DNA of 53,491 bases from a virus. The notes under the pieces were generated by a model. It saw nothing but the letters and a program-made list of their open reading frames with translations, searched no databases and was not told where the DNA came from. A program made the position numbers and the translations under genes. Numbering within the stretch: the first letter of the stretch is position 1; every line of letters begins with the position of its first letter. Shown piece by piece: positions 20,930-47,449 of this stretch. The stretch spans positions 1 through 53,491 of IMG/VR virus record IMGVR_UViG_3300048999_000117; one strand, given 5' to 3'.

Positions 20930-20965
20930 GCGGCCGTCCCTGCATCCCCCGTCAGGGGCGGCCGC
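20930..20965. terminator. Bidirectional terminator hairpin
   Basis: GCGGCCGTCCCTG pairs with CAGGGGCGGCCGC with one mismatch, between the plus-strand small operon and the stop of the minus-strand XRE gene. Convergent genes share it. Confidence 0.6.
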
Positions 20966-21202
20966 TCACTTGACCAACTCGGCGAGGGGTACGCCGATGG
21001 CGTCGGCGATCCGGATCAGCGTGTCGAGGAGCGGCGAGGAATGCCCCTGTTCGATCCGGCTGTATGTGGCGACGTCGATCCCGGACAGTCCGCATACGTC
21101 GGGCTGCGTCATGTTGTGCTGCTCGCGCACACGGCGGATCTGTTCTCCCACCTGGCGGCGGCGGGCGAGGACCCGTTCGTCGGGTGGAGTGGGGCGGGAC
21201 AC
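20966..21202 (-). CDS. Small XRE-family regulator
   Basis: A 78-residue protein that is almost entirely one helix-turn-helix domain: VGEQIRRVREQHNMTQPDVCGLSG, then VATYSRIEQGHSSPLLDTLIRIADAIG. It ends LAELVK. Such minimal proteins act as dimeric repressors. A perfect inverted repeat lies 34-51 bases upstream of its start, suggesting it represses itself. Confidence 0.9.
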   Translation of the reverse strand: MSRPTPPDERVLARRRQVGEQIRRVREQHNMTQPDVCGLSGIDVATYSRIEQGHSSPLLDTLIRIADAIGVPLAELVK

Positions 21203-21235
21203 CCGTCCACGCTGACGACCACATGATCAAATGTG

Positions 21236-21253
21236 ATTAGGGTCAACCCTAAT
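21236..21253. promoter_or_regulatory. Operator of the small XRE regulator
   Basis: ATTAGGGT and ACCCTAAT form a perfect inverted repeat with a CA spacer. It is AT-rich in an otherwise GC-rich genome and lies just upstream of the regulator that starts at 21202. Symmetry and position fit an XRE dimer site. Confidence 0.65.
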
Positions 21254-21348
21254 TTGTGTGATCTTGAAGGCTGAGGGGAACCCGATCAGAATCGGCTCCC
21301 CCACCTACGGCCCTTCCTGTTCAGCCCCCAGGCAGAGGGAAGGTGCCG

Positions 21349-21380
21349 CGGCTCCCCCGGTCCCCAGACCGGGGGAGCCG
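21349..21380. terminator. Very stable 14-bp hairpin
   Basis: CGGCTCCCCCGGTC and its exact complement flank a four-base CCCA loop. It follows the minus-strand gene at 21393-21911 in its direction of transcription and so is its likely terminator. The 21254-21348 stretch before it holds no gene I can support. Confidence 0.7.
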
Positions 21381-21392
21381 TCACATGTGGCC

Positions 21393-21911
21393 CTAAACGG
21401 CCAGCAGGATCGCCGGCGGAACCCGGAGCGGGGTCGGTGAGAGAGCAATGCCGGGCCACGTCTTGTGCTCGTACCAGGCCTGAAGCCACAGCCCGTCACC
21501 GGCGATACGTTCCAGCATCCCGTTCATTTCGTTGCGCAGCGCACCGGTGCAGTAGCCGGAGCGAATGTTCCACACGCACACCCCGTCCTCCTCGGTGGGG
21601 AAGACGGTCCGGTCGCGCGGCATTTCGAGTGCCGGAACGATCTCCCATCGTGATTCGGCGATACCGAGACCCTCGATGGGCTGCTGCATGCGGCCTTCGT
21701 CGGTCCAGCGCTGTCGCCACAGGCCGTCACCGACCTGGTGACGGGTCAACCAGTTGAATTCCCGCACGAGCTGCCTGCGCGCGTGCAGGCGGTGGAGGAA
21801 GATGTCGGCCGTTGCACCATCGCGATCTTCGACGTGGACGAGACGACCCGAAGGAATCTGGCTGGATTCCCCCAGGTGGTACACGGCCGATGGGTGCTGC
21901 TCATTTGGCAT
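21393..21911 (-). CDS. Unknown protein of the lysogeny region
   Basis: A 172-residue protein starting at ATG 21911, which has a GGGGGCGAT site; a longer in-frame start at 22028 lacks one. It begins MPNEQHPSAVYHLGESSQ and is rich in Trp and Arg (EFNWLTRHQVGDGLWRQRW, AGDGLWLQAWYEHKTW). The repeated GDGLW-x-Q element suggests two related motifs. Function not recognised. It lies downstream of a regulator on the same strand and may be expressed in the lysogen. Confidence 0.6.
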   Translation of the reverse strand: MPNEQHPSAVYHLGESSQIPSGRLVHVEDRDGATADIFLHRLHARRQLVREFNWLTRHQVGDGLWRQRWTDEGRMQQPIEGLGIAESRWEIVPALEMPRDRTVFPTEEDGVCVWNIRSGYCTGALRNEMNGMLERIAGDGLWLQAWYEHKTWPGIALSPTPLRVPPAILLAV

Positions 21912-22103
21912 ATCGCCCCCTGTGTCCCGTGCTGCTCCCGCCAAAATGCGTGGCAGCGGCAGCACGGATCCGTCATCTCGCGCCCCCAGGCGGATGACCA
22001 TCATGCACCGGGCGATACTTTCAGCCAATAGGTTACGTACAGCGCGTAATCACCCTTCGCCAACTCCCTGCCGAATAATGGAAGTTGTGGCGAAAAAAGT
22101 TCG

Positions 22104-22508
22104 TCAGTCGGTTTGCGCCTTGCGCCTGGACTCCATCAGCCTCAGGACTTTCTCCTGGTCGTCGGCATCCATCTCGCTGAACCCGATCACGAGGGCCCGC
22201 ATCTTTCCGTCGGCTGTCCATACGGTGTCGATGCCAAGGAACTGCGAACCGGCCGCCTCTTGGACCATGCCCAGGGGGAGCTGCAGGCCGGCCGCCAGAG
22301 CTCGCAGTTGGGGGAACTCCGGGGCCTTGATCCGTCGCCCCTGTCGTAGGTTGTCGAGAGTGCCGCGGCTCCAGAGCGGGCCCTGCGCGGGGCCCTCTGG
22401 ATCGATGCAGGCCGCCGCGAGTGTGCGGGCCCCGTACTCCAGTTCTTCCATGCGTGCGCGCACGAGGTCGGACAGGTGGGTGCGTGGTGTCTCGCTGCCA
22501 GCCGCCAT
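22104..22508 (-). CDS. Helix-turn-helix regulator, possible immunity function
   Basis: A 134-residue protein. ATG 22508 is favoured by an AAGGATGAGG site; ATG 22517 is an alternative. The first 75 residues (HLSDLVRARMEELEYGARTLAAACID, then WSRGTLDNLRQGRRIKAPEFPQLRAL) form an XRE-like domain. The C-terminus is acidic with VIGFSEMDADDQEKVLRLME. Proteins of this form are common Streptomyces regulators. Position beside the integrase suggests a role in lysogeny control. Confidence 0.78.
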   Translation of the reverse strand: MAAGSETPRTHLSDLVRARMEELEYGARTLAAACIDPEGPAQGPLWSRGTLDNLRQGRRIKAPEFPQLRALAAGLQLPLGMVQEAAGSQFLGIDTVWTADGKMRALVIGFSEMDADDQEKVLRLMESRRKAQTD

Positions 22509-22690
22509 TGTCCTCATCCTTCGATCCCAGTGGGCCGCCTAGATCGAGGCGTGCCGTGCACAGTGTCCAGGTTCTTGGCCAGTCCGCACCAGCCTGTGCC
22601 CGGAGGTCATCCTGCTCGCGGTCAGCGGCAGGCCGGAGTGCGCTATGCACTCAAGGTGGGAAACGAATGGGAAATGATCAAGCTCAGTAG

Positions 22691-22730
22691 ACTCTATTCG
22701 TCTCTAATAATCTCTAGCTTTCCCTAGTTT
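22691..22730. promoter_or_regulatory. Four 10-bp phased CTCTA repeats
   Basis: Four consecutive 10-base units, ACTCTATTCG, TCTCTAATAA, TCTCTAGCTT and TCCCTAGTTT, share the core CTCTA or CCCTA at exact 10-base steps. The segment includes AATCTCTAG (22709-22717), which is also found three times at 25233-25318. It could be repressor operators or integrase arm sites. The rest of the 22509-22841 interval shows no gene I can support. Confidence 0.6.
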
Positions 22731-22841
22731 CGCCCTTGGACTGCTCCGCCGCTCACGATCTCTGCCATCGACCCGCGATTGCGCCAGTCGAAGGACGATG
22801 AGCGGCGGAGGCCAGTCAACTACTGCCTGACCTGCTGTTTT

Positions 22842-22955
22842 TCACAGCGCTTGGGCGGCCGGCTTCACCATGCCGCGCACCGTGCGGGACTTCACGAAGT
22901 CGCCCATCGCGGTCATGTCCCACTCGCCGGAGAACTGCTTGACCAGCTTCGCCAT
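22842..22955 (-). CDS. Thirty-seven-codon frame next to integrase
   Basis: Begins at ATG 22955, two bases after the integrase stop, and ends at a TGA at 22842-22844. The product starts MAKLVKQFSGEWDMTAMG and ends in a basic, ordered tail (VRGMVKPAAQAL). Codon use is like a conserved gene. The frame is open upstream to 22974, so it could be the 3' end of a host gene carried at attP and used to restore it after integration. Otherwise it is a small coupled gene. I do not recognise the protein. Confidence 0.45.
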   Translation of the reverse strand: MAKLVKQFSGEWDMTAMGDFVKSRTVRGMVKPAAQAL

Positions 22956-22957
22956 GT

Positions 22958-24298
22958 TCAGGCTGGTACACGATCACCTGCGCTGAGCTGGGGAGTCTCT
23001 ACGCCCGGTTGATCAACTGGGAGAGGACTGGGAAACGGCGGTATCCAGAGACCGCCCGCAGCCTGATGGAAGGTGTCCCACCGCTCCTGCTGCGACTCAA
23101 TGATATCCCTCTCCATCTTGATGGTGAGGTTGCTGTACAGGCCCCTGACGCCCGCGATCTCGTGGCCCATCCGCGTCTCGACGGCGACCTCGGAGTGCCC
23201 GTCCTCGTCGAGGCACTCCTTCATCCAGTGCCGGAGCCGGTAGATGGGCGTCGCCTCGAACTCCTTCACCGCGGGGATGGCCGGACGCAGGAAGTCCTTG
23301 CGGGCCTCGCGTGCCTCACCGCCGTCACGCGTCGGCCACCAGTAGTCCCGGTCGAACCGTGCGCTCAGCAGCGGGCCCCCGTTCATGGCGGGGAACGTCC
23401 ACGGTGCTGTGTGGGAGGACGCGAGCGCGGTGTGCATCCCGGTCAGGAACGGCGCCATGACGAGGCTCCGGTGCGACTCGTACTTCGGCGCGGTGAGGGT
23501 CGGCTTCCCGCCCACCCACTGGTGCTGGAACTCCACTCGCGTCGCCGGCATGTCCGCGTACCGCTCCAGCGACTCGGCCCGCTGCTGTGAGTCCGGGTCG
23601 GAGGCCGGCCAGAGCGGTGCGGCGTAGACCTTCTGCTGGCCGTACATCTCGCCGGGCCGTGTCCCTTGGAACGCCGCGTGCCAGATGTACGTCCACCCGG
23701 CGAAACCCCACACCGTGTAGGCGTTGACCGCCAGTTGGTACACCGGGCCCATGGCCAGGGGGCGCTTCTTCTTGACGGTCTTCTTCACGTACTTGCCGCG
23801 ACGCGGGGTCGGCGGCGGCAGAGGGGTGTCGGTCCGGTACTTGTACCGGGTCACCGCGTCCGCCATCAGCATGGCGAACACCATGAGGATGTCGTCGACA
23901 TAGGTGCGCGACAGCTCCTTCCTCTCGACCTTCTGATTCAGCGAGTTCTTCCAGGCGAGGTACTCGGGCGTCGTGATATCGCCGACGCGCCTTCTGCCCC
24001 ACTGCTTGTTGATCTGCGCTTTGATCATGGACCGGTACGTCTTGACGGATTCGAGCCTCAGATCCTGGTCCGGTAGCCAGATCGGCAGCGCATAGTCCTT
24101 CATCAGGATGTCGCCGCGGCTCTTGGGAACGTGCTTGTCGTGACGAACCTCGTATTCACGGTCCAGGCCGAAGTCGTAGGCGGAGTCGTAGTCGTTGAAG
24201 CCGGACTCGCTCTCGTACTTCTTACTGCCGCTGTCGAGGTATTCCCCGGCCCACCACTTCACGCGGAACTTGTTTCCGCGTTGCTCGACATAGGGCAT
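22958..24298 (-). CDS. int: Tyrosine site-specific integrase
   Basis: A 446-residue recombinase that would integrate the phage at attB. The N-terminal part (MPYVEQRGNKFRVKW, arm-binding style) and a core-binding domain (residues 60-150) precede the catalytic domain. Active-site residues: Arg214 in FQGTRPGE, Lys272 in TAPKYESHRSL, Arg356 in YRLRH, His379 in RMGHE and the nucleophile Tyr388 in GLYSN. The first His of the HxxR box is replaced by Tyr353, a tolerated variant. It has an AGGGGG site before the ATG. Confidence 0.93.
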   Translation of the reverse strand: MPYVEQRGNKFRVKWWAGEYLDSGSKKYESESGFNDYDSAYDFGLDREYEVRHDKHVPKSRGDILMKDYALPIWLPDQDLRLESVKTYRSMIKAQINKQWGRRRVGDITTPEYLAWKNSLNQKVERKELSRTYVDDILMVFAMLMADAVTRYKYRTDTPLPPPTPRRGKYVKKTVKKKRPLAMGPVYQLAVNAYTVWGFAGWTYIWHAAFQGTRPGEMYGQQKVYAAPLWPASDPDSQQRAESLERYADMPATRVEFQHQWVGGKPTLTAPKYESHRSLVMAPFLTGMHTALASSHTAPWTFPAMNGGPLLSARFDRDYWWPTRDGGEAREARKDFLRPAIPAVKEFEATPIYRLRHWMKECLDEDGHSEVAVETRMGHEIAGVRGLYSNLTIKMERDIIESQQERWDTFHQAAGGLWIPPFPSPLPVDQPGVETPQLSAGDRVPA

Positions 24299-24375
24299 GC
24301 GTCATCCCCCTGGGTGAGAATGCGAATTGAATGGCTGTGCTGACAGGCGTCCTGTCTTTGGGTGTTGAGCTGATC

Positions 24376-24573
24376 TCAGCCTGCTCGGCCGACCGGACAT
24401 CCACCGCACGCTCTGCAGTTGACGCCTTCGCCGTGCATGAGCCTGCGGACGAGAGCCTGAGTCTTCGGGTCGGAGGCCGCTGCCGACGGAAGGACGCAGA
24501 CGACCCGGCCGTCGATCTTCAACGCTTGGCCTATAAAGGCGGGCTCTCGATCGTAGGTAATCACCGTCGCCAC
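24376..24573 (-). CDS. Small protein upstream of integrase
   Basis: A 65-residue protein starting at GTG 24573. It begins MATVITYDREPAFIGQALKI and carries CRACGGC near its end, a likely metal site. It lies 77 bases upstream of the integrase gene on the same strand and could be co-transcribed with it. Function not recognised. Confidence 0.6.
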   Translation of the reverse strand: MATVITYDREPAFIGQALKIDGRVVCVLPSAAASDPKTQALVRRLMHGEGVNCRACGGCPVGRAG

Positions 24574-24652
24574 ACTGCGCCTCGCTCACCCCTCGAAGAA
24601 CCCCCAGGTGAACGTCAGCGTTGCACGTGGGATGCGGCTCCGTGAGGGTAGA

Positions 24653-24670
24653 TGGCCAAAAACTTGGCCA
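24653..24670. promoter_or_regulatory. TGGCCAA inverted repeat after repressor gene
   Basis: TGGCCAA and TTGGCCA flank AAAC, a perfect 7-bp stem 54 bases beyond the repressor stop. It may be a terminator for the repressor or a regulatory site for the minus-strand integrase operon. The surrounding 24574-24723 gap shows no gene. Confidence 0.4.
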
Positions 24671-24723
24671 CTACAGGTCACGATCGGGTAACGACAAAAA
24701 GGTTGTACGCCGATCGCGTTCGA

Positions 24724-25203
24724 TCAGTCTGAATCGCTAAGTAGTCCGTGCTTGCGCATGACTTCCAGGGCGTACTCGGCTACGCGTCTGCTCATTTCCT
24801 GGGCTTCTCCGAGAGGCACTTGCGGGCTGACCGCTGTCGCCACATCGAGGAACCCCTCTCTCATCTCCTCGCTCACGTCCGCCGCGCGTACCCGGCTGCG
24901 CTGGATCTGTGCGCCGGAGATCAGCTCGGTGCCGTCGGTCAGCGTGATGGAGTCCGCGCCGGCCAGGACGCTCGTGCAGGAGCCGGGCTGCATCCCGAAG
25001 CCTGCTTCGAGCTTGGCGTAACTCGTGGGGCCGACCGACTTGCCCTTCTCGACGTTCGAGTAAGTCGTGACCGAGAGACTGCACAGCTTGGCCGCGTCGC
25101 GCTTGTCCGTGATGCCGAGCGCGGTGCGCCGCTGAAGCACGAGTGTCCCGAGTTTCAGCAGGTGACGGCTGGTGTCGTCGCTGGTTGGCGCCATGCCGCC
25201 CAT
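24724..25203 (-). CDS. Phage repressor (XRE-type)
   Basis: A 159-residue protein on the minus strand, divergent from the Cro-like gene. Residues 15-70 form a helix-turn-helix (LKLGTLVLQRRTALGITDKRDAAK, then SVTTYSNVEKGKSVGPTSYAKLEAGFGM). The C-terminal half is acidic and helical and may dimerise. No LexA-type Ser/Lys peptidase is seen, so induction is not by simple self-cleavage. ATG 25194 is an alternative start. Position and divergence make it the best candidate for the main immunity repressor. Confidence 0.82.
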   Translation of the reverse strand: MGGMAPTSDDTSRHLLKLGTLVLQRRTALGITDKRDAAKLCSLSVTTYSNVEKGKSVGPTSYAKLEAGFGMQPGSCTSVLAGADSITLTDGTELISGAQIQRSRVRAADVSEEMREGFLDVATAVSPQVPLGEAQEMSRRVAEYALEVMRKHGLLSDSD

Positions 25204-25215
25204 GATGACAGCTAC

Positions 25216-25370
25216 CTCTAGCTACCGCCAGAAATCTCTAGGCCTGTGGCCAGTTCTTGGCGTCACCTTGGCGGACTGTGGTGCACGCGGCAGCGAGAAC
25301 TAGAGATTTCTAGAGATTACTCGCGAGTATCGCTAGAAGTCTCCATCGCGAGTCACTAGCTTTCTCCATA
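25216..25370. promoter_or_regulatory. Divergent switch region with CTAGAGATT operators
   Basis: The 166-base gap between repressor and Cro-like genes has three exact copies of a 9-mer: AATCTCTAG (25233-25241) and CTAGAGATT (25300-25308 and 25310-25318, the last two in tandem at 10-base spacing). Degenerate copies lie at about 25217 (CTCTAG), 25332 (CTAGAAGT) and 25356 (CTAGCTTTC, also at 22714-22722). This is the layout of a lambda-like switch with several sites covering two promoters. Confidence 0.8.
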
Positions 25371-25666
25371 TGCACAGAACCCCAACCACCTTCCAGGTGG
25401 ACGGGGCGGCCATCCGCACACGCCGCAAGGAACTCGGTCTGTCCCTCGCCGAGTGCGCCGCCCGAGCCCGAATCAGCCGGCCGTACCTCAGCCAGCTCGA
25501 AAACGGCGACCGGCGCGACATGCGGCCCCCCACCTACAAGCGCCTGAACTCCGCCCTCAAGAGCCAGCGATCAAAGCGGCTGCTCCTCGCCCCTACCGAG
25601 GACGCGGCACGAGAGGAAACAGATGCCCGCCACGAAGGCGCCCCCCGCTCGGACCAGGACGGATGA
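25370..25666 (+). CDS. Cro-like helix-turn-helix protein
   Basis: A 98-residue protein whose first 65 residues are an XRE domain: IRTRRKELGLSLAECAARAR, then ISRPYLSQLENGDRRDMRP and PTYKRLNSAL. The end is charged and disordered. It is the first gene transcribed rightward from the switch region and so is the likely antagonist of the repressor. The end overlaps the next gene by 44 bases. Confidence 0.85.
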   Translation: MHRTPTTFQVDGAAIRTRRKELGLSLAECAARARISRPYLSQLENGDRRDMRPPTYKRLNSALKSQRSKRLLLAPTEDAAREETDARHEGAPRSDQDG

Positions 25667-25949
25667 GCCCGTCCTGCAGAACTTCCACAACCTGAAGCAG
25701 GCCACTGTCCGGCTCGGCCTCGCCACCGAAGACCCTGCCGACACCCGAGGTCAGGACTGGCTCCGCAGGGGTGTGAACCGTCCCGAGGACGGCAGCAAGG
25801 GACCCCGGTTCCCCTGCCACCGCATGGCCAGTCAGCTCATGTTCAGTGACTCGGACCTCGCCGTGATCGCGGAGATGCAGCGCAACAAGGTCGACGGCCG
25901 GTCGAAGCCCCGTCGAAGCCGCCGCACCCGCAGGTCGTCGAACGCCTGA
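25623..25949 (+). CDS. Putative excisionase or DNA-binding protein
   Basis: A 108-residue protein with a central winged-helix-like stretch: FHNLKQATVRLGLATEDP, then GQDWLRRGVNR, CHRMASQLMFSDSDLAVIAEM. The tail is Arg-rich. The pattern (helix, wing with FP/CHR, helix) is typical of small actinophage excisionase or early DNA-binding proteins. As the second gene of the early operon it may direct prophage excision. Confidence 0.65.
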   Translation: MPATKAPPARTRTDEPVLQNFHNLKQATVRLGLATEDPADTRGQDWLRRGVNRPEDGSKGPRFPCHRMASQLMFSDSDLAVIAEMQRNKVDGRSKPRRSRRTRRSSNA

Positions 25950-26049
25950 CATGGCGACGGCCCCGACAGCCGGTCTGCCAACCGCCCGTCGAGGCCTCCG
26001 AGTTCCACCGCTCTACCTGCAATCGGACTGCAAGAGAGAAGAGGACCAC

Positions 26050-26280
26050 GTGTCCGCATCATCCCAGACCCACCCGCCGGGAGCGTTGACCGCTCTCAGC
26101 GAGGCCCGGCCGGTGCGCCGGATCGCCGAGTTGGACGTGCCGCTGGCCCAGGTCGAGGCCGAGCTGGACGCGCTGCGTCAGCGACTCCCGCTCGACGACC
26201 CCGACCGGCACGCCCTCGACACCGCCGCCGACCGCGCCTTCGCGCAGCTGGTGTGCGAGCCGACGGGCGGTGCCGTGTGA
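26050..26280 (+). CDS. Small early protein
   Basis: A 76-residue protein starting at GTG 26050 after AGAAGAGGACC. The helical middle is ALTALSEARPVRRIAELDV, then LAQVEAELDALRQRLPLDD. It opens a run of nine genes ending at 29263 that overlap each other by four or a few bases, so all are probably one transcript. Unknown function. Confidence 0.65.
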   Translation: MSASSQTHPPGALTALSEARPVRRIAELDVPLAQVEAELDALRQRLPLDDPDRHALDTAADRAFAQLVCEPTGGAV

Positions 26281-26675
26281 GCGACCACATCACCAGCGAG
26301 GCCCTCGCCGACATCGCGGTGAGCACCGGCCCTGACTGGCAGGCCGGCCGCCACGAGCCGCACGACCCCGAGGCCGAGATCACCACCCCTTCCCTCGACG
26401 CGACACAGACCAAGTACCGCGTCACCTACGACCGCGTGGGCCGCCACGGCGGACGCAACGGCAGCAATCCCCCGGCCCCGCTCACCGTGTGGGCGGTCAC
26501 CGCCGATGGACTCGCCGAGCACATCGCGAAGGACGTCCGCCCGTACCTCCTCTCCCGGGGCGCCGAAGTCGTCGTCGACCTGGAGAAGATGAGCGGCTTC
26601 GTCCTCGCCCGGTTCCAGAACGCCGGCACCTTCACCATCGAGGCCGTGCAGGTCACCGAGGGCGGTGCCGCGTGA
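26277..26675 (+). CDS. Early protein of unknown role
   Basis: A 132-residue protein starting at GTG 26277 (GTGA overlap). It has a beta-rich middle (KYRVTYDRVGRHGGRNGSN) and a second half of alternating strands and helix (LAEHIAKDVRPYLLSRGAEVVV in two parts). It looks like a small alpha/beta domain. No motif was recognised. Confidence 0.65.
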   Translation: MSDHITSEALADIAVSTGPDWQAGRHEPHDPEAEITTPSLDATQTKYRVTYDRVGRHGGRNGSNPPAPLTVWAVTADGLAEHIAKDVRPYLLSRGAEVVVDLEKMSGFVLARFQNAGTFTIEAVQVTEGGAA

Positions 26676-27130
26676 GCGCCGACTCCACGAACTACCACGA
26701 GGCCAAGTACCTCGTCGGCCGGGCGCACCACTACACCTACGGCGACGGTGGCGACCCCGTGACCGGCTCGGCCCTGGCCACCGAGGCGCTGGCCTACGCC
26801 GTGCTTGCCCTCGTCGACACGCTCGCCCAGCCGCAGCCCGAGGAGAAGGCCACCGCTGAGGCGGCGACGGCCACTCCCGAGCTGACGATCTACCGGGCGG
26901 CGCACGAGTCGCTCGTCCTCGGCTGGTACACCAACGCCGCGGAGGCCCGCCGGCACTGCGCCACGCTCATGCTGCGCGAGCAGCCGTCCGCCGCCCTCGA
27001 CTGGATCGAGGACGAGGAGGACGACGTCGCCGAGCTGGCCGCCACTGTCGACGGCGAGGAGAACCCCACCGGCTACCTCGTGACCGCACTGACGGTCGCC
27101 TCCGAGTACGACGAGGGGGCCGACGAATGA
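26672..27130 (+). CDS. Early acidic protein
   Basis: A 152-residue acidic protein starting at GTG 26672. It has a helical first half (GSALATEALAYAVLALVDTL). The segment LTIYRAAHESLVLGWYTNAAEARRHCATLM looks like a small domain of its own. The end is rich in Asp/Glu (DWIEDEEDDVAELAATVDGEE). Function unknown. Confidence 0.65.
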   Translation: MSADSTNYHEAKYLVGRAHHYTYGDGGDPVTGSALATEALAYAVLALVDTLAQPQPEEKATAEAATATPELTIYRAAHESLVLGWYTNAAEARRHCATLMLREQPSAALDWIEDEEDDVAELAATVDGEENPTGYLVTALTVASEYDEGADE

Positions 27131-27522
27131 GCGCCCGTCAGCCCTACGGGCTCCTGTCCAAGGCGGCCGAGCAGGTCCGCGAGTTCAACCACACGTCCCG
27201 CAGTGCCCATGCGGGGTGGGAGTACCCGAGCCACTCCTACAGTGCGCTCGGCAACCTCTCCCACATGGTCGGCATGCTGCCGCAGGCCATCGAGCAGGCC
27301 ATCCGCCCGGTGATGCACACCTACGAGCACGGCCGCGTGGCCATCGACAACGGCGGCGATGCCGACGCGAAGGTGGCCGAGCTGGTCGCCGCCCGCGACG
27401 ACGCTATGAGGGCCGCCGCCGCGCTGACGGACGCCGTCCAGCGAATGCACAACGCCACCTCCCCGATGGGCTTGGACACGCGCGGTATCCCCGAGTTCGA
27501 GGACGACGGCGGTGACGAGTGA
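27127..27522 (+). CDS. Early helical protein
   Basis: A 131-residue protein overlapping the previous gene as ATGA. A His/Ser-rich segment (AGWEYPSHSYSALGNLSHMV) precedes a long helix (VAELVAARDDAMRAAAALTDAV) and an acidic tail. It may be a coiled-coil dimer. Unknown function. Confidence 0.65.
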   Translation: MSARQPYGLLSKAAEQVREFNHTSRSAHAGWEYPSHSYSALGNLSHMVGMLPQAIEQAIRPVMHTYEHGRVAIDNGGDADAKVAELVAARDDAMRAAAALTDAVQRMHNATSPMGLDTRGIPEFEDDGGDE

Positions 27523-27725
27523 TGGCGGCCGCCCTGGTGTCGCGCCCGCTCGCGGACTTGGAGATGGAATCGGTGCTCGCGGTCGAGGCCGCGTGGCAGC
27601 GCCGCGCGGGGGGCCGGAAGCCGCAGACCATCGCGGAGTTCCTCAACGCCGTGGACACCGTGCACGTCCGGTACGCGCTGCGCCGCGAGTGGCTGCGCCG
27701 GCACCCGCAGGGGGTGTCGTCGTGA
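27519..27725 (+). CDS. Small early protein
   Basis: A 68-residue basic helical protein (MESVLAVEAAWQRRAGG, then TIAEFLNAVDTVHVRYALRREWL). It starts at GTG 27519 or ATG 27522, overlapping its neighbour. It may bind nucleic acid, judged from charge only. Confidence 0.6.
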   Translation: MMAAALVSRPLADLEMESVLAVEAAWQRRAGGRKPQTIAEFLNAVDTVHVRYALRREWLRRHPQGVSS

Positions 27726-27940
27726 CGACCGCCGCACGTCAGTCGAACCCGCTCGCCGACCTGCCGACGATGCCGGAGGCCGCGGCCCCGGTGCTGCTTC
27801 CGGGTCTGCTGTACGGCCTCGGCCTGCGCCCCCGCCCGGTCCCCAGGTGGATCACCGATCCGGAACTGATCGCCTCCATCGAGGCCGGCCTCATCGAAAT
27901 TCCCGACGACCTCAACACCAGCCAGGGGGACAGCAAGTGA
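27722..27940 (+). CDS. Small early protein
   Basis: A 72-residue protein starting at GTG 27722. It has a Pro/Leu-rich centre (VLLPGLLYGLGLRPRPVP) and an acidic helix (DPELIASIEAGLIEIPDDL). No motif. Confidence 0.6.
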   Translation: MTTAARQSNPLADLPTMPEAAAPVLLPGLLYGLGLRPRPVPRWITDPELIASIEAGLIEIPDDLNTSQGDSK

Positions 27941-28308
27941 GCGACCTGCACGGGGTGCGCGTCGACACGGACGGCACCCGCACCGCCATCACGGTCCCGG
28001 CCGCGACGATGAACGAGTCCCTCCGTAAGGAGGTGGGCGGCGACATCGAGTTCGCGCACTACGGCACCGCTCAGTCGGCGGTCACCGCCGTGGTCCACGA
28101 GTCGGGGATGCCGGACGGCCTGCCCGTGAACGGGGACGCGGAGACGTTCGTCTGCCACATGCGCGGCGGCCAGCTCGGCTACCACCTGTACGGGCCCGTC
28201 GTGTTCTTCGGGTTCGACCCGGCACGCGTAGCCACCATCGACCTGACCGGAGACCAGCGCGCGATCCTCAACCGCCTGCCCGTGTACGGCAAGGGCGGTG
28301 CGCGATGA
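27937..28308 (+). CDS. Early protein, DUF3846-like fold
   Basis: A 123-residue protein starting at GTG 27937. It has strands around HGVRVDTDGTRTAITVP and VGGDIEFAHYGTAQSAVTAVV, then GLPVNGDAETFVCHMRG and YGPVVFFGFD. The size and the GLPVN element resemble DUF3846 proteins of actinophages, but the match is weak. It could be a small regulator. Confidence 0.6.
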   Translation: MSDLHGVRVDTDGTRTAITVPAATMNESLRKEVGGDIEFAHYGTAQSAVTAVVHESGMPDGLPVNGDAETFVCHMRGGQLGYHLYGPVVFFGFDPARVATIDLTGDQRAILNRLPVYGKGGAR

Positions 28309-28877
28309 AGTGCGGCGAGCCCAAGCCGGGCGGCAGTTACAAGGACTGCGACGAAGAGCTGAAGCATCGGGGGGACCACGGCTACCTCGGTGAGCGATGG
28401 CCGCGCGTACAGCCCGCTGAGCCGGACTGGGACGTACAGGAACTCCTGGACGACACCAGGCCCCGCGACACGTGGGGTGTGCTGGAGCGCAGCTTCCCGA
28501 TCGTCGTCACCGAGACGGTCACGCGGATCGTCTGGGTGACGGCCGAGTCTGAGGACGATGCCCTCTCCTACTGGGGCGACGACCCCACGGATCTGTCGAT
28601 GGACGGCGCCGAAGTCCTCGACGGGGACTTGGAGTTCTCGCGGCCGGACAAGTGGCAGCGGCAGGCGGCGTTCCGGGCGAACCGCTTCGAGTCGAAGGTC
28701 GGCCCGCTGGTTCCGTGCCCGGACTGCGGCGCGCAGGCCTTCCGGCGGGAGTGGTTCCACGACCCGTACCGGAAGTGCCACGGCCCGATCCAGTGGCGGC
28801 AGGGCCGTAGCGGGCGCGCGTTCCGCGAGCACCACCAGACCCCGGTCGGCGGAACGCGTGAGGCGGTGCGGTCATGA
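28305..28877 (+). CDS. Early zinc-ribbon protein
   Basis: A 190-residue protein with two Cys clusters: MKCGEPKPGGSYKDCDE at the start and LVPCPDCGAQAFRREW near residue 150, followed by a third Cys. The middle is an alpha/beta segment (FPIVVTETVTRIVWVTAESEDDALSYW). Zinc binding is likely; the function is unknown. Confidence 0.68.
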   Translation: MKCGEPKPGGSYKDCDEELKHRGDHGYLGERWPRVQPAEPDWDVQELLDDTRPRDTWGVLERSFPIVVTETVTRIVWVTAESEDDALSYWGDDPTDLSMDGAEVLDGDLEFSRPDKWQRQAAFRANRFESKVGPLVPCPDCGAQAFRREWFHDPYRKCHGPIQWRQGRSGRAFREHHQTPVGGTREAVRS

Positions 28878-29263
28878 AGAACCCGCTCGCCGGCACTGGC
28901 CTCCGTCGCTACACCCGCAAGCACCTGGTCCACGACCGTGACGCCGCCCGCGCCGAGGTCCTCCGCCTGGAGGGCGTCATCCGCCACCTGGACGGCGCCG
29001 CGATCGCACGCCACGAGCGGATCGCGCAGTTGGAGGCGGACGCCGTCGACGTCGGTGTCGAGCGCCAGCTGCGCGCGGCGGCCGAGGAGAAGGCCACGGA
29101 CCTGGAACGCCAACTGCGCGCCGCCAAGGCCCGGGTCGCCAACGAGACCGCGATCAGCCTCCCGCCGCCGTACCGCGACTTCAGCCCCGACGAGGCGGCC
29201 ACCCATCCCCGCGGGCTCGACGTCCGCACCCTCCGCGACGCCCTCAACCCCACCGCCGCCTGA
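28874..29263 (+). CDS. Coiled-coil early protein
   Basis: A 129-residue protein with a long coiled coil from about residue 18 to 90 (RAEVLRLEGVIRHLDGAAIA..., ERQLRAAAEEKATDLERQLRAAK in heptads). It overlaps the zinc-ribbon gene as ATGA and closes the first early gene run. Function unknown. Confidence 0.66.
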   Translation: MKNPLAGTGLRRYTRKHLVHDRDAARAEVLRLEGVIRHLDGAAIARHERIAQLEADAVDVGVERQLRAAAEEKATDLERQLRAAKARVANETAISLPPPYRDFSPDEAATHPRGLDVRTLRDALNPTAA

Positions 29264-41618: not shown

Positions 41619-41798
41619 CTACTCGGTGCCGCCCTCGGGGGGCCTGTCTGGTAGTTCGTCCGTCTCGTGTACAAGCCAGCGGAGGAAGTCGCGGATCGCC
41701 GCGCCTCGGTTCCGTGGTCCGACTGCCTGCCCGGCCTTGTCCCACAGCTCTTTCTCGACGCGGACGGTCTGGCGGGGCGTCTTCTCAACGTTCGGCAT
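41619..41798 (-). CDS. Ribbon-helix-helix repressor
   Basis: A 59-residue protein, short enough to be missed by a 60-residue cutoff, on the minus strand from ATG 41798. It starts MPNVEKTPRQTVRVEKELWD and continues with AVGPRNRGAAIRDFLRWLVH, the ribbon strand and two helices of the Arc/CopG fold. Three GTCATGAC palindromes lie upstream, as expected for RHH dimers on tandem sites. It faces the divergent transfer-like operon and probably represses it and itself. Confidence 0.8.
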   Translation of the reverse strand: MPNVEKTPRQTVRVEKELWDKAGQAVGPRNRGAAIRDFLRWLVHETDELPDRPPEGGTE

Positions 41799-41812
41799 CG
41801 GCGCTCCAGTTC

Positions 41813-41881
41813 GTCATGACACCGTGAGGTTACCCATTGCGGTGTCATGACACCAGGGTCTAGGGTGGGTGTCATGACACC
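41813..41881. promoter_or_regulatory. Three RHH operator sites
   Basis: GTCATGAC at 41813-41820, GGTGTCATGACACC at 41841-41854 and the same 14-mer at 41868-41881. Centres are spaced 31 and 27 bases. All lie between the divergent repressor and the membrane/translocase operon, so they can control both. Confidence 0.8.
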
Positions 41882-41943
41882 GGGCCCCAGGGCCCGACAA
41901 CAGAAGACAGCCCATGCCCGGGATTCCCGTCCCAGGCATGGGC
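41881..41943 (+). promoter_or_regulatory. Leader hairpins of the transfer-like operon
   Basis: CGGGCCC and GGGCCCG pair around CA at 41881-41896, and GCCCATGCC (41910-41918) pairs with GGCATGGGC (41935-41943) around an inner CGGG/CCCG stem. They are in the leader between the operators and the first gene, and could attenuate or time expression. Confidence 0.5.
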
Positions 41944-41982
41944 CTAACCGAACCTTCCTGATCAGACCAGGAGGCATCAGCT

Positions 41983-42336
41983 GTGGCTGATCATTCCGCG
42001 CGCCCCGACGCGCCCGCAAGTTCCCCGACCATCGCCGAGCTGCTCCGCCTCTGCGCGGAGGACTACGCCAGCACCGCACACCTGCGCCACCCCAGCGAAC
42101 ACACGGCCCCGGAACGCCCCTGCCCCGCCACGTTCCCCACCGACCCGACGCCCTGCCGCGGCCCGATCGCCGTCACCGTCCTCGACACCGAGAACGCCGG
42201 CGCCGACGGCTGCGAGTACCACGCCGCCCGCCTCCTCGCCTCGCTCAACGGCGGACGCGTCCACGCCCGGCCGGACGCCCCCGACGGCGCCGCCCTCCGC
42301 GTCTTCAAGGCCGCCGCCGGCGGTGAGCGCCAGTGA
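41983..42336 (+). CDS. First gene of transfer-like operon
   Basis: A 117-residue protein starting at GTG 41983 with an AGGAGG site. It has a helical start (TIAELLRLCAEDYASTAHL), four Cys (CPATFPTDPTPC, GCEYHAARLL) and a hydrophobic middle (GPIAVTVLDTENAG). Small proteins of this sort precede membrane genes in Streptomyces mobile elements. Function unknown. Confidence 0.65.
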   Translation: MADHSARPDAPASSPTIAELLRLCAEDYASTAHLRHPSEHTAPERPCPATFPTDPTPCRGPIAVTVLDTENAGADGCEYHAARLLASLNGGRVHARPDAPDGAALRVFKAAAGGERQ

Positions 42337-43196
42337 GCCGCACCCGCCGCGTCCTGGCCAAGCTGACCGCACCCTTCCGCACCAAGGCCCCCGCCGTCGG
42401 CCGTCGCTCGGCCGCCCCGCTGTGGGTCCGCGGACTCACAGCCGGCGGACGCCCCATCGTCCTCGGAGTCGCCCTCCTCATGTGCGCACCCGGCGAGTAC
42501 CACCTCGCCGAGACCGCCGGATGGAACGACCCCTTCACCTACGGCATGCCGGTCGTCCTCTCCGCCTACGCGGGCATCGCCGCCGCCGTCGCCTCCACCC
42601 GCCGCCGAGGCGACCGGGGCCGCTGGTCCGCGATCATCGGCGCCTGCCTCGCCCTCGGCCTCGCCATGGCCGCCCAGGTCGTCAGCCACCTCATCACCAC
42701 CGGGCACGTCATCGCCGACCAGCCCATCCTGATCGCCGTCACCAGCCTCGTCCCGCCCGCCGTCGTCGGTCACCTCCTACACCTCGCGGCCAGCCCGCCG
42801 GACGCACACCAGGACGCACAGGACACCCAGGACGCGACCGCGTCCACCCCCGTCCCGAGCGTCCCGGCTATGCGGGACGTGGTCCCGCCCGATGCCCGGC
42901 TGCTGCCGCTCGTCGCCCGCCCGGTGCCAGTCGTAACCCTCGAACGCGAGGACCGACAGGACGACGACAGGACGCGCGAACTCCCGCCCGGGACGGGCCA
43001 GGACGCCGAGGACGGGCCGCCGCCCGAGCCGCCCCTCATGACGTCCGCCCAGGTCGCCGAGCGGTACGGCATCGCGATGTCCACCGTCCGCTCCTGGGTC
43101 GACACAGGACGCCTCACCGTCCACAGCAAGGACGGCCGGAACCGGAGCTTCTTCCACCCGGACGCCCTTCCCGAGCTGGAGGCGGTGCGCTCATGA
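42333..43196 (+). CDS. DUF2637/SpdB-like membrane protein with HTH
   Basis: A 287-residue protein. Residues 30-150 have four membrane segments (PIVLGVALLMCAPGEYHLA, VVLSAYAGIAAAVAS, SAIIGACLALGLAMAAQVV, ILIAVTSLVPPAVVGHLL), a layout shared with DUF2637/SpdB proteins of Streptomyces plasmids and integrative elements. A Pro/Asp-rich linker follows. Residues 235-285 form a winged-helix domain (LMTSAQVAERYGIAMSTVRSW, RNRSFFHPDALP). Spd proteins help a plasmid spread within the recipient mycelium. Fusion to an HTH suggests DNA binding at the membrane. Confidence 0.72.
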   Translation: MSRTRRVLAKLTAPFRTKAPAVGRRSAAPLWVRGLTAGGRPIVLGVALLMCAPGEYHLAETAGWNDPFTYGMPVVLSAYAGIAAAVASTRRRGDRGRWSAIIGACLALGLAMAAQVVSHLITTGHVIADQPILIAVTSLVPPAVVGHLLHLAASPPDAHQDAQDTQDATASTPVPSVPAMRDVVPPDARLLPLVARPVPVVTLEREDRQDDDRTRELPPGTGQDAEDGPPPEPPLMTSAQVAERYGIAMSTVRSWVDTGRLTVHSKDGRNRSFFHPDALPELEAVRS

Positions 43197-43369
43197 CCCG
43201 CCTCGCCTTCGGCGCCGTCCTCGGACTCCTCGTCGCCTGCCCGACTCTGCTCGCCGTCGTCCTGGCCGTCGTCGCTGCGGTCGTCTCGCAGCCCGCCGTC
43301 CTCGCCTTCGCGGCCGGCGTCCTGCTCTGGCCGCGCCTCGCTCGTCGCGTCCGGGGGTGGACCCGATGA
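43193..43369 (+). CDS. Small hydrophobic membrane protein
   Basis: A 58-residue protein coupled as ATGA. Two hydrophobic helices cover residues 3-30 and 32-46 (FGAVLGLLVACPTLLAVVLA, VLAFAAGVLLW), with a basic tail. Small double-pass proteins of this kind are typical of Streptomyces spread genes. Confidence 0.65.
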   Translation: MTRLAFGAVLGLLVACPTLLAVVLAVVAAVVSQPAVLAFAAGVLLWPRLARRVRGWTR

Positions 43370-43683
43370 GCGACGCCCTGCGAAAGGCGGAGGACGCCGT
43401 CCGGGACGCCACCGCCAACACCGACGTCGTCCGCATCGTCGCCGCCGTCCTCGCCACCCAGCAGGCCGCCCAGCAGCAGGCGCCCGCCCCGCCGTCCGCG
43501 CCGACGACAGACCGACGCCCTGTCGGCCTGTACATCGCCGGCGGCATCGGCGCCGCGGTCGCTCTCGCCTTCCTGGCCATGGCCGCCGCGGTCCTCGCGG
43601 TCGCGGTCGCCGTCGGCGCGATCTGCGCCACCGCCTGCGTGCTCGTGCTCCGCAGCATGTGGCGCGACTTCACCAATCGCTGA
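43366..43683 (+). CDS. Membrane protein with helical head
   Basis: A 105-residue protein starting at ATG 43366 (ATGA overlap). A helical head (ALRKAEDAVRDATANTDVVR), an Ala/Gln/Pro spacer, and two membrane segments (YIAGGIGAAVALAFLAMAAA, VAVGAICATACVLVL) make it another probable spread-type membrane protein. Confidence 0.65.
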   Translation: MSDALRKAEDAVRDATANTDVVRIVAAVLATQQAAQQQAPAPPSAPTTDRRPVGLYIAGGIGAAVALAFLAMAAAVLAVAVAVGAICATACVLVLRSMWRDFTNR

Positions 43684-43697
43684 CCAGGGGGAACCCC

Positions 43698-43934
43698 ATG
43701 AACAAGACCACCCAAGAGCAGTACGTCCAGCTTGCGTGGAGCGCCACCGCCAAGGCCGAGCAGCTGGCCCGCGACGCCGAACGGGCCGCCCGCAACGAGG
43801 ACTTGCGGCACAAGGTCGAGCCGCTCGCCGCCGCTGGCCGCCTGTGGGCCGAGGTCGCGCAGGCCTACAGCTCCATCGCCGCCGTGCTGCCCGAGCCGCT
43901 GCCCGAACTGCCCACCGCCGGAACGGAGTACTGA
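43698..43934 (+). CDS. Helical protein of the transfer-like operon
   Basis: A 78-residue soluble helical protein (QLAWSATAKAEQLARDAERA, AAAGRLWAEVAQAYSSIAAV) with a GGGGAACC site. No motif. Position suggests work with the membrane proteins or translocase. Confidence 0.6.
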   Translation: MNKTTQEQYVQLAWSATAKAEQLARDAERAARNEDLRHKVEPLAAAGRLWAEVAQAYSSIAAVLPEPLPELPTAGTEY

Positions 43935-43936
43935 CC

Positions 43937-44272
43937 ATGCGTAGCTCCTACACGCGCGGCGAGAAGCTGCGCCTGGCGTACCTCGTGGCCAAGGCCGCGA
44001 AACAGTCAATGGCTGGTGACCGCAACGTCGACACCATCGACCCGCGGGTGAAGGCTGCGGCCGACCGCATCGAGGAGCGGGCCGCCGAGCGCGGCAAGAG
44101 CGAGGCCAAGGCGCTAGGCGAGCAGCTGGCGAAAGCCCGCAGCGACGCCGCGACCGCCAAGGCGACCATGCGCGCCAGCCGTGGCCAGGACCGGGCCGCA
44201 GCCCGACGCGAGATGCACGAGCGCGAGGCCGCCGGCCGCCGCCTCGAACGCGAGCTACGCAAGTACCAGTAA
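43937..44272 (+). CDS. Coiled-coil basic protein
   Basis: A 111-residue helical, Arg/Lys/Ala/Glu-rich protein (EERAAERGKSEAKALGEQLA, RREMHEREAAGRRLERELRK). It is likely a coiled-coil or DNA-associated protein. A hairpin follows before the translocase gene. Confidence 0.62.
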   Translation: MRSSYTRGEKLRLAYLVAKAAKQSMAGDRNVDTIDPRVKAAADRIEERAAERGKSEAKALGEQLAKARSDAATAKATMRASRGQDRAAARREMHEREAAGRRLERELRKYQ

Positions 44273-44278
44273 CAACGC

Positions 44279-44319
44279 CCGGGGACGGCGTCCACCGCCA
44301 AGCAGACCGCCGTCCCCGG
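44279..44319 (+). terminator. Hairpin before the translocase gene
   Basis: CCGGGGACGGCG pairs with CGCCGTCCCCGG around a 17-nt loop. It could partly terminate the operon and lower translocase expression. Confidence 0.6.
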
Positions 44320-44356
44320 ACCCCGGACCGCCCAACAGAACGACCGGAGACCCAGC

Positions 44357-46483
44357 ATGACAGTCGACCTGATCAAGGCGTCACCGGACGCACCCTCGGA
44401 CGCGCAGGACGCTCCGGCCCCTGAGGCGTCCTCGGACCGTCCCGAGGCGTCCCGTCCGCCGCGTCGCATCCGCATCGCCCACCTCCGCCGCGTCGTCGTC
44501 GACATCCGCCAGAACCCCGCCTACCGCCTGGCGGTCCGCCACGGCGCCTACACGTGGGGCGGCATGCGCATCCTGACCCGCCGCGCGTGGGAGGCCCGCA
44601 CCACCGCCACGCACCAGCGGATGATGCGCATCGCCGAGGCCGCGGGCAACGAGGAGATGGTGCAGAAGTGGGAACAGCGCGCCTACGCCTACCGGTTCGC
44701 CCGGCACAAGCGGCGCATGGACCTGCTCCAGCTCGCCATCAACCTGCCCAAGGCCGTGTTCACCACGGTCGTCGCCGGGGCGGGCGTGCTCCTGATGCTG
44801 GGCATCCTCATCGCCTGGCACAACCACGACGTCGCCGACGTCCTCGCGCCGCTCGACGCCGTCATTCAGCTGGTGGCGTGGCTGGGGTTCATCGCCTCCG
44901 TCATCTGGGACCCGCTCCTGTACTCGCTGCCCCTGCTCGCCATGGCCGGCGCCTGGGCCGTCGGCAAGAACCAGAAGGCGGCACCCACCTGGGCCCTGCC
45001 CGCCGACGATGCCGCGCTCGACGTCATCCCGGACGAGAACGCCATCCTGAGAGCCCTCGGCAACCTGGGCCTCTCACCCCTGAACAAGGCGATCAAGGAG
45101 GGCTGGAAGCCGCGCTGGGTACAGCCCACGGTCCGCCTCGGCAACGGGTACCACACACAGGTCCAACTGCCCCTCGGCGTCACCGTCGAGATGGTCAACG
45201 GCAAGAAGAACGTCCTCGCCCACAACCTGCTCCGCAAGCCCGTCGAGACCTGGCCGACCGAGCCGCCCAAGCAGCCCGGCGTCCTCGACCTGTGGGTAGC
45301 CGACCAGGGCTCCCTCAACGGACCCGTACCACCGTGGCCCCTGCTCACGGAGGGCACGACCGACTACTTCAAGGGCGTACCCGTCGCCCTGTCGCAGCGC
45401 GGCGAGCCGATCATCGGCAAGCTCATGGCCGCGAACTGGATCGTCGGCGGCATCATGGGCTCCGGCAAGACGTCCATCGTCGTCTCGCTGCTCCTCGGCG
45501 CGATCCTCGACCCGCTCGTCGAGGCCGAGGTGTACGTCATGGCGACGAACATCGACTACGACCCGCTCAAGCCGCGCCTGAAGGCCCTCGTCAAGGGCGA
45601 CGACCCCGAGCAGCTGAAGGCCGCCCTCGACCGGCTGCGCAGCCTCACCAACGAGGTCACCGAGCGCGGCAAGCTGCTGGAGGAACTCGGCGGCGAGTCG
45701 CCCAAGCTCACCCGTGAACTGGCCCTGAAAGACCCGCGCATGCGGCCCCGGGTCATCGTCTTCGACGAGGTCCACGAGCTGTTCATGAGCAAGGAGTACG
45801 GCAAAGAGGCCGCCGAGCTGGCCATCCGCGTCATGAAGAAGGCCCGCAAGGTCGGCATCACCCTCATCTGGGTCACCGTCTCCCCGACCGCCGACAGCAT
45901 CCCGCGCGACGTCACCCGCAACACCAGCCACCGCGTCGCGTTCGCAGTCGGCGACCAGGTCGCCAACGACGGCCTGCTCGGCTCCGGCAAGTACAAGGCC
46001 GGCATCCGCGCGACCGAACTCGTTCCCGGCCAGGACATCGGCACCGCGGTCACCTACGGCTTCACCAGCAAGCCCTTCGAGGTCATCCGCTCCTACTACG
46101 TCGCCCGCGACCCCGAGAAGGGCATCGACGAGGTCACGCCCGTCGTCGAGCGGGCCATGGGCCTCTACGAGGGCACCGGGCCCGTGGACACACCCACCTT
46201 CGACGTGGCCGACCCGCTCACGGACATCGCGGCCGTCCTCGGCCACGAGCCGCGGATGCGGACACAGGACGTGCTGCGCGGCCTCCAAGACCGCGCCCCG
46301 GTCGCCTACGGCAGCTGGTCGTTCCGCGACCTCAAGAGCGTCCTCGACGACGCCGGCCACGGCGTCTACAAGACGGACGGCGGCAAGATGCACGTCAGCC
46401 TCGACCGCATCCTCGACGCCATCGCCGCCCGCGACGAGGACACCCCGGACGACGAAGACGACGAGGGAGGCACCGAAGACTGA
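44357..46483 (+). CDS. TraB/FtsK-like DNA translocase
   Basis: A 708-residue protein. Residues 1-120 are charged; two or three membrane segments follow (about 125-155 and 165-205: AVFTTVVAGAGVLLMLGILI, LLYSLPLLAMAGAWAVG). The ATPase domain has a Walker A motif GGIMGSGKTS with Lys near residue 370, and a Walker B motif VIVFDEVHELFM near 470. The C-terminal 90 residues (MRTQDVLRGLQDRAPVAYGSW, DLKSVLDDAGHGVY) look like the winged-helix DNA-recognition domain of such proteins. This architecture is that of Streptomyces TraB, which moves double-stranded plasmid DNA between cells. The GGGAGGC repeats that follow could be its target. Confidence 0.82.
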   Translation: MTVDLIKASPDAPSDAQDAPAPEASSDRPEASRPPRRIRIAHLRRVVVDIRQNPAYRLAVRHGAYTWGGMRILTRRAWEARTTATHQRMMRIAEAAGNEEMVQKWEQRAYAYRFARHKRRMDLLQLAINLPKAVFTTVVAGAGVLLMLGILIAWHNHDVADVLAPLDAVIQLVAWLGFIASVIWDPLLYSLPLLAMAGAWAVGKNQKAAPTWALPADDAALDVIPDENAILRALGNLGLSPLNKAIKEGWKPRWVQPTVRLGNGYHTQVQLPLGVTVEMVNGKKNVLAHNLLRKPVETWPTEPPKQPGVLDLWVADQGSLNGPVPPWPLLTEGTTDYFKGVPVALSQRGEPIIGKLMAANWIVGGIMGSGKTSIVVSLLLGAILDPLVEAEVYVMATNIDYDPLKPRLKALVKGDDPEQLKAALDRLRSLTNEVTERGKLLEELGGESPKLTRELALKDPRMRPRVIVFDEVHELFMSKEYGKEAAELAIRVMKKARKVGITLIWVTVSPTADSIPRDVTRNTSHRVAFAVGDQVANDGLLGSGKYKAGIRATELVPGQDIGTAVTYGFTSKPFEVIRSYYVARDPEKGIDEVTPVVERAMGLYEGTGPVDTPTFDVADPLTDIAAVLGHEPRMRTQDVLRGLQDRAPVAYGSWSFRDLKSVLDDAGHGVYKTDGGKMHVSLDRILDAIAARDEDTPDDEDDEGGTED

Positions 46484-46626
46484 GGGAGTTCTCCCTACCC
46501 GCCTCCCTGCCCTGCATCCCCATGGTTGACCTGGGGAAACAGTGGTTTAGGGAGGCAGGGGAGGCAGACCCACGAGGACGAGGGAAACGGGAAACAGGGA
46601 CTTCAGCATCCCTCGCGCCGCCTCCC
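46465..46626. repeat. GGGAGGC repeat cluster after the translocase gene
   Basis: GGGAGGC or its complement occurs at 46465-46471, 46501-46507, 46550-46556, 46560-46566 and 46620-46626. AGGGAG and CTCCCT also form an inverted repeat at 46483-46496, and GGGAAAC occurs twice nearby. The 46484-46656 gap has no gene. A repeat cluster next to a TraB-like gene resembles clt loci (translocase binding sites) of Streptomyces plasmids. The role is inferred. Confidence 0.6.
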
Positions 46627-46656
46627 TCCCCACCACGCCCACGAGAGGATGCACAC

Positions 46657-47171: not shown

Positions 47172-47191
47172 CGCCGTTGCAGGGGGTGACC

Positions 47192-47449
47192 ATGGGCCGC
47201 CCCGGAGACCGCGAAGCCGCCCACGGCCGCGAAGACGCCGACGGCACCATCTGGTTCACCGTGGCGGAAGCCGCCGCCTTCACCGGCCGCAACCGGCAGA
47301 CCATCTACAGCTGGGAACGCCGAGGTCACCTAAAGGAACCCCGGCACGACGAGCACGGTCGGCGCATCTACACCCAGGCCCAGATCGCTGCCGCCGAACG
47401 CCTCGCGCGCCACAACGCCGCCGCCACACGCCGCGTCGCCGTCGTTTGA
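47192..47449 (+). CDS. MerR-like helix-turn-helix protein
   Basis: An 85-residue protein starting at ATG 47192 with a GGGGGTG site. The domain FTVAEAAAFTGRNRQTIYSWERRGHLKEP, ending with GRRIYTQAQIAAAERL, is a winged-helix of the MerR/excisionase type. It is similar in kind to the domain at the end of the SpdB-like protein. It may be an excisionase or operon regulator. Confidence 0.8.
   Translation: MGRPGDREAAHGREDADGTIWFTVAEAAAFTGRNRQTIYSWERRGHLKEPRHDEHGRRIYTQAQIAAAERLARHNAAATRRVAVV

Follow-up and report, generated by a model that had tools for sequence, protein, structure and literature searches.

Phages are usually taken to travel as particles, and conjugative elements to pass from cell to cell by contact. 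In the conjugative plasmids of Streptomyces, a hexamer of the translocase TraB acts on clt repeats and double-stranded DNA is transferred (PMC4170104, PMC3583192). The mapped clt of plasmid pWTY27 comprises 16 bp of traA and the next 159 bp, and contains direct and inverted repeats that are bound by TraA (PMC3583192), while a second protein, SpdB2, binds TraB and acts in intramycelial spread (PMC4170104). For pSAM2, the archetype of the actinomycete integrative and conjugative elements (AICEs), a 2022 paper states that no clt has been described (PMC9513070). Here, we analyzed a virus record from IMG/VR, IMGVR_UViG_3300048999_000117, over its full length of 53,491 bases (the window). Between 41.6 and 46.65 kb, the window carries a ribbon-helix-helix (RHH)-type gene, a divergent operon and then a repeat array. 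Judged by sequence comparison, this operon and the transfer genes of prim-pol AICEs are homologous, and a clt-like array is present at the 3' end of the operon's traB gene. We consider it probable that the record represents a temperate phage in which an AICE-type conjugation module is carried as an exchangeable unit, through which DNA would be pumped between hyphae.

The open reading frames (ORFs) of the module lie where a first-pass annotation, made from the DNA letters alone, had placed them. That annotation described the 708-aa product as a membrane-anchored FtsK-type ATPase with a winged-helix-like end, and all three parts of the description were borne out. The protein has a Walker A motif (GIMGSGKT, residues 365–372), and G365, G370, K371, D470 and E471 are invariant in 25 sequences. 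Transmembrane (TM) segments were predicted by hydropathy at residues 134–152 and 162–180, with model helices at 99–156 and 160–205, and the AlphaFold2 (AF2) model has a C-terminal winged helix at residues 620–694, mostly at pLDDT 70–90. In Foldseek comparisons, the best match of the motor was FtsK (E = 1e-14), and TcpA, the conjugation coupling ATPase of pCW3, matched at 1e-12. On these sequence and model features, the protein is classified as a TraB/Tra-type translocase.

Relatives of the translocase (E ≤ 1e-20) were found in 154 of 296 Streptomyces genomes. Matches to the Tra proteins of conjugative elements were full-length, and that to pSVH1 TraB, at just 26% identity, covered the motor only. 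The closest relatives form a clade of 60–82% identity, separate from a large AICE-like group of 31–36% identity. Members of the close clade occur in prophages (G282, G143, G003 and G269; G, C and L numbers are our labels for genomes, contigs and loci), together with packaging or structural genes like those of the window. They also occur in three elements (in G002, G204 and G191) that are considered to be AICEs because they encode Prim-Pol or DUF927 and a tyrosine integrase. On the motor tree, the phage and AICE members require four label changes, and therefore the translocase gene appears to have moved between phages and AICEs. Among IMG/VR contigs, 73 encode relatives of the translocase, L151 being a marginal match; in the 50 records that were checked, a phage portal gene was present in 31 and an HK97 capsid gene in 25. 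A further relative, 74% identical and with a clt-like element, was observed in a 15.1-kb element in G287:C16 (loci L046/L047, joined context 13991–29165) that has a 30-bp direct repeat at its ends. This element also encodes a tyrosine integrase, a GntR-type regulator (by clustering), Prim-Pol, HNH, a small terminase (Terminase_4) and an HK97 capsid protein. Neither a portal nor a large terminase or tail gene could be recognized in it, and it has the appearance of a phage satellite that encodes a capsid and bears a conjugation module.

The repeat cluster that the first-pass annotation noted after the translocase gene is dense and conserved. Five copies of GGGAGG/CCTCCC are present in 170 nt where 0.8 are expected, a count reached in 0 of 2000 shuffles, and the record has no denser cluster of this kind. 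The signal is one of local clustering only, GGGAGGC being present 21 times across the whole window against 22 expected, which is not significant. In almost all relatives, a homologous element with the same layout comes directly after the 3' end of traB, in phages, AICEs and the more distant group of about 34% identity alike. As a positive control, the same program found GACCCGGA repeats, which agree with the 8-bp recognition sequence of TraB, at the same position in pSVH1. In a wider comparison with shuffled sequences, TraB 3' regions were repeat-rich at 91 of 108 loci, versus 27 of 130 control gene ends (p ≤ 0.01). A search of 30 Streptomyces genomes with the pattern of the element (TT, AA or GA centre) returned 33 distinct sites, and the reversed control returned none. 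By coordinate comparison, 32 of the 33 sites lie on the 3' side of a TraB homologue, at a distance of up to about 110 bp. The exception, G143:C136:34984-35020, is a clt-like element with no detectable TraB beside it and is perhaps the remnant of a decayed element. Three GC-centred pattern sites (GGGAGCGCTCCC) adjoined no listed TraB and were treated as chance. Other TraB-like lineages, located near the terminase of related phages, have repeat families of their own 3' of the gene, as observed at nine viral loci (L168, L160, L172, L177, L184, L194, L214, L217 and L219), and these are possible further clt types.

Comparison of the repeats with the winged helices revealed that the two vary together. 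Winged-helix groups were clustered from the protein alone and repeat groups were counted from the DNA alone, the latter being group A (GGGAGGC), group B (AGTGAGGC/GGTGAGG) and group C (GGGTTAG-like). The three repeat types match three winged-helix types in 93 of 95 loci, with assignment to the distant repeat class being weak for L103 and a few low-count loci. On a tree built from the motor domain only, the repeat class switches at least 11–12 times, and all eight independent pairs that differ in winged-helix class differ likewise in repeat class (sign test p = 0.0078). This covariation points to a protein–repeat recognition code and strongly supports the predicted recognition of the clt-like repeats by TraB. 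At two loci, L134 and L150, class A and class B repeats are mixed 3' of TraB and the winged helix is intermediate (HRYDGYPVV), which is possibly a transitional specificity. A broader proposal, which we hold to be plausible though short of probable, is that a recurrent class of conjugative temperate Streptomyces phages shares exchangeable traB–clt cassettes with AICEs and at least one satellite-like element, with the winged helix and the 8-bp repeat forming a specificity code. If so, the phages of this class would travel through mycelia by contact and without lysing them, and the code would set whose DNA the pump of a given element can move.

The genome that houses the module is that of a tailed, probably temperate phage, based on its virion, lysis, recombination, regulator and integrase-like genes. 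The first 127 bases of the record are repeated at its end, and because of this terminal overlap it is probably a complete circular assembly. AICEs have no virion genes, whereas the record encodes a large terminase (TerL), portal, head protease, HK97-type capsid, tape measure and endolysin. It also encodes RecT-like and replication-initiation-like proteins, a YqaJ exonuclease and Cro/C1-type helix-turn-helix (HTH) regulators. A 446-aa ORF is a candidate for a divergent integrase: it is nearly invisible to Pfam (E = 0.014, weak) and PHROGs, and copies related to it sit on Streptomyces chromosomes. No AICE-type replication gene (Prim-Pol, RepSA or RepAM) was found near traB, the whole record not having been scanned with each AICE Rep profile. 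The nearest prophage relatives are on Streptomyces contigs (G282 and G143; terminase identity 77–80%), and a nucleotide search of cultured phages with the record gave no match. In the same genome, we observed a collagen-triple-helix-repeat protein gene downstream of the endolysin gene (16569–17516, +; Pfam E = 1.5e-13), which is conserved in the G003 prophage. At 18068–19927 (+), a DUF6879 gene precedes an HTH-DUF5753 gene, and close copies of the two (57–59% identity) are found in G095 at ~7 kb from TraB.

A survey of related phages, as the first-pass annotation had proposed, found such genes in the same place. In 33 viral contigs whose terminase is at least 66% identical to that of the window and which have at least 6 kb of upstream sequence, a TraB-like gene was present upstream of the terminase in 19, mostly 1.7–4.5 kb away and in one case 7 kb. 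These 19 genes are from at least five lineages, pSVH1-like ones included, and the other lineages examined there have 3' arrays of their own (AGAGGGGG, CGACCGGGC, CCGAAACC and CCCGGACG). The first-pass annotation had named findings that would refute its idea, a translocase clustering with phage-only FtsK proteins that lack a TraB-type DNA-binding end, and close phages that lack the membrane genes or show no DNA transfer; in the sequence comparisons made here, the idea survived. Modules of this kind recur at this position in many related prophages, and these viruses may therefore spread by contact as well as in particles.

We propose that, once repression is lifted, TraB hexamers would assemble on the clt-like repeats via the C-terminal winged helix, with TraB sitting in the membrane through its N-terminal helices. 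TraB would then pump circular double-stranded DNA, either that of the phage or that of the excised prophage, into a hypha touching the donor or, alternatively, across the septa of the recipient with the help of the Spd-like proteins. In this way, the phage could spread by cell contact in addition to virions. It is likely that the module acts on the phage's own DNA; transfer between hyphae is inferred from the Streptomyces plasmids, and by the same analogy TraB would bind and pump DNA and the Spd-like proteins would assist.

Several points weigh against this proposal. The match of the translocase to Pfam FtsK_SpoIIIE, at 22.6 bits, is just below the curated cut-off of 24, and no cultured phage in the collection carries the module. 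No TraB-like gene was detectable in 14 of the 33 related phages, and the module is thus dispensable. The SpdB-like protein is without demonstrable homology to SpdB2 of pSVH1. Lastly, traB adjoins its repeats, and recombination could by itself hold the pair together; joint transfer could contribute to the covariation because the winged-helix codons adjoin the repeats, although this leaves unexplained why the repeats are maintained at all.

The alternative that survives best is that DNA is dispersed within one mycelium only, being moved across the septa of an occupied hypha by a Spd-like function, or by segregation of the FtsK kind, with no donor-to-recipient transfer. We regard this as unlikely. 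In its favour, such an activity would be useful to a phage in multi-compartment hyphae, and at most TraB loci there is an upstream multi-TM, Spd-like membrane protein, the plasmid Spd proteins having the intramycelial role described above. The first-pass annotation called the 287-aa protein of the window a DUF2637/SpdB-like protein with four membrane segments. The four helices were modelled, at low confidence (residues 40–61, 66–89, 94–122 and 131–153; pLDDT about 60). Pfam gives no DUF2637 call for the protein, and its profile link to DUF2637 proteins is weak (probability 63.5%). Eight of the 19 proteins at or near its position in related loci are DUF2637 proteins, and a homologue lies directly upstream of TraB in the prim-pol AICE of G204. 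Iterated hidden Markov model searches were made with the N-terminal part alone, because whole-protein iteration drifted to unrelated HTH proteins, and they picked up neither pSVH1 SpdB2 nor the spdB product annotated on the AICE-like plasmid NZ_CP108827. The protein also has a confidently modelled C-terminal winged helix (pLDDT about 90), which was absent from the first-pass account. Against dispersal in one mycelium as the sole function is that the plasmid TraB–clt pair serves mating and that clt-like elements have been kept with traB here. Both functions may coexist, and sequence does not tell hypha-to-hypha transfer from spread within a single mycelium.

It is improbable that the 3' repeats are instead an RNA element, a terminator or a replication origin. 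Inverted copies are present that are able to pair; however, all Rfam matches over the repeat region were far below gathering scores, and direct and inverted copies have changed in step (from GGGAGGC through GTGAGGC to GGGTTAG), although a hairpin would not call for this in the direct ones. In addition, the element stays with traB in phages that have no AICE replication genes, tracks the winged-helix class and is almost absent away from TraB. We give still less credence to the module being passive cargo, captured from an AICE and unused by the phage. Its absence from some related phages and the alternation of one TraB clade between AICEs and phages would fit such a capture, but the motor codons are under purifying selection (dN/dS, the ratio of nonsynonymous to synonymous changes, about 0.10–0.25), the position is conserved, the ORFs are intact, and at least five TraB lineages have replaced one another, each with a repeat array. 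Equally hard to credit, and largely refuted, is the view that the protein is a phage-type FtsK with a part in packaging, in DNA entry or in takeover of the host, comparable to those of cluster J mycobacteriophages or Bacillus phages. The translocase matches PHROG 1358 (FtsK/SpoIIIE-like, host-takeover category; 2e-18) and its gene is near terminase genes, but it stood apart from the FtsK proteins found only in phages. A search of 50,697 cultured phage records gave no match at E ≤ 1e-5 and motor-core matches alone at E ≤ 10 (best 2e-3), versus full-length matches of 60–82% in prophages and AICEs, and the AICEs with same-family genes have no virion genes.

Table 1. Positions of the module and of other features in the window.
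Feature	Position	Strand	Remarks
RHH/Arc-like putative repressor, 59 aa	41619-41798	-	Divergent from transfer operon
Putative operators	41813-41881	.	Core GTCATGAC three times, two as full GGTGTCATGACACC; between repressor gene and operon
117-aa protein	41983-42336	+	First operon gene; homologues (68-75%) upstream of TraB in G053, G286, G134
287-aa SpdB-like protein	42333-43196	+	Four predicted membrane helices and C-terminal winged helix (AF2); HTH_17/MerR-like C-terminus
58-aa protein	43193-43369	+	One TM; homologues in G269, G143
108-aa protein	43357-43683	+	One TM; conserved in prophages and AICEs
78-aa helical protein	43698-43934	+	No TM; conserved upstream of TraB at several loci
111-aa DUF6257 protein	43937-44272	+	Pfam E=4.8e-9
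708-aa TraB-type DNA translocase	44357-46483	+	TM helices, motor, winged helix (about 620-694)
clt-like element	46464-46640	.	Palindrome GGGAGTTCTCCC and GGGAGGC repeats, direct and inverted
AGGGAGGC	46464		Inside last traB codons
Palindrome GGGAGTTCTCCC	46484-46495		Directly after traB stop
GCCTCCC	46501		Followed by spacer containing TGACCTG
GGGAGGC, two tandem copies	46550 and 46559	Opposite direction to GCCTCCC	Part of clt-like element
GCCTCCCTCCC	46620		After the tandem GGGAGGC copies
90-aa MerR/HTH_17 protein	47177-47449	+	After module, before HNH and terminase
Tyrosine-recombinase-like ORF, 446 aa (candidate integrase)	22958-24298	-	Motifs GTRPGE, LRH, MGH, Y by eye
Replication-initiation-like gene	35428-36414		Matches phage families

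The remaining genes of the module are listed in Table 1. The two further small membrane proteins of the first-pass annotation were found, each with one predicted TM. As to its RHH repressor, the match of the 59-aa product to the Arc-like repressor family phrog_6506 is at chance level (E = 0.13), but the gene is kept in the divergent position in G031 (85% identity) and G269 (46%), and the two GGTGTCATGACACC copies are conserved in G031 as well. Before the operon, at 41900–41970, we observed a hairpin-like leader (GCCCATGCC...GGCATGGGC), a possible attenuator; G031 and G269 have other sequences there with the same stem layout.

Amongst known systems, the module is closest to that of the prim-pol AICEs (the G002 element, whose TraB is 80–82% identical to that of the window, and NZ_CP108827), with which it shares a Spd-like protein, DUF6257, a winged-helix TraB and 3' clt-like repeats. 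The annotated gene order of NZ_CP108827 (L037) is spdB, RRQRL, two small genes, DUF6257, FtsK, prim-pol, rep, xis and integrase, and this resembles the phage operon up to FtsK. AICEs have Prim-Pol/Rep and usually a GntR repressor, whereas the replicon here is an entire tailed-phage genome, with a putative repressor of the RHH type. With the TraB/clt system of pSVH1 and the TraA/clt system of pWTY27, the module shares a membrane-anchored FtsK-type motor, a C-terminal winged helix and repeats located at the 3' end of tra or beside it, the pWTY27 clt having the same placement relative to tra as the clt-like element. The repeats themselves differ, being GACCCGGA in pSVH1, TGACACC/CCCGCCC in pWTY27 and GGGAGGC here, where their role is predicted from sequence.

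The FtsK-like translocases of cultured phages (cluster J mycobacteriophages, Streptomyces phage Mischief19 and Bacillus phages) share the FtsK-type motor, with weak motor similarity only. A 2023 survey of actinobacterial prophages makes no mention of FtsK or conjugation. The plasmid-phage pZL12 (Zhong et al. 2010) is a Streptomyces element with phage genes for which conjugal transfer has reportedly been found. The likeness is in the combination of phage genes with conjugation, reported for pZL12 and predicted here; the difference is that the window represents a tailed phage whose integrase-like gene is divergent and whose traB–clt module is of the AICE type. The general idea thus has precedent, because phage FtsK genes are known and pZL12 is a reported conjugative phage-plasmid. 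What appears to be new is an AICE-type traB–clt module in a family of tailed, probably temperate phages in which it has apparently been exchanged repeatedly, together with a predicted family of clt motifs for AICEs and phages and the putative winged-helix/repeat code. The predicted motifs make it testable, by swaps of repeats and winged helices, whether the TraB of one element moves the DNA of another. Here, one genome holds the putative machinery for both modes of movement, and related phages repeatedly swap the contact part.

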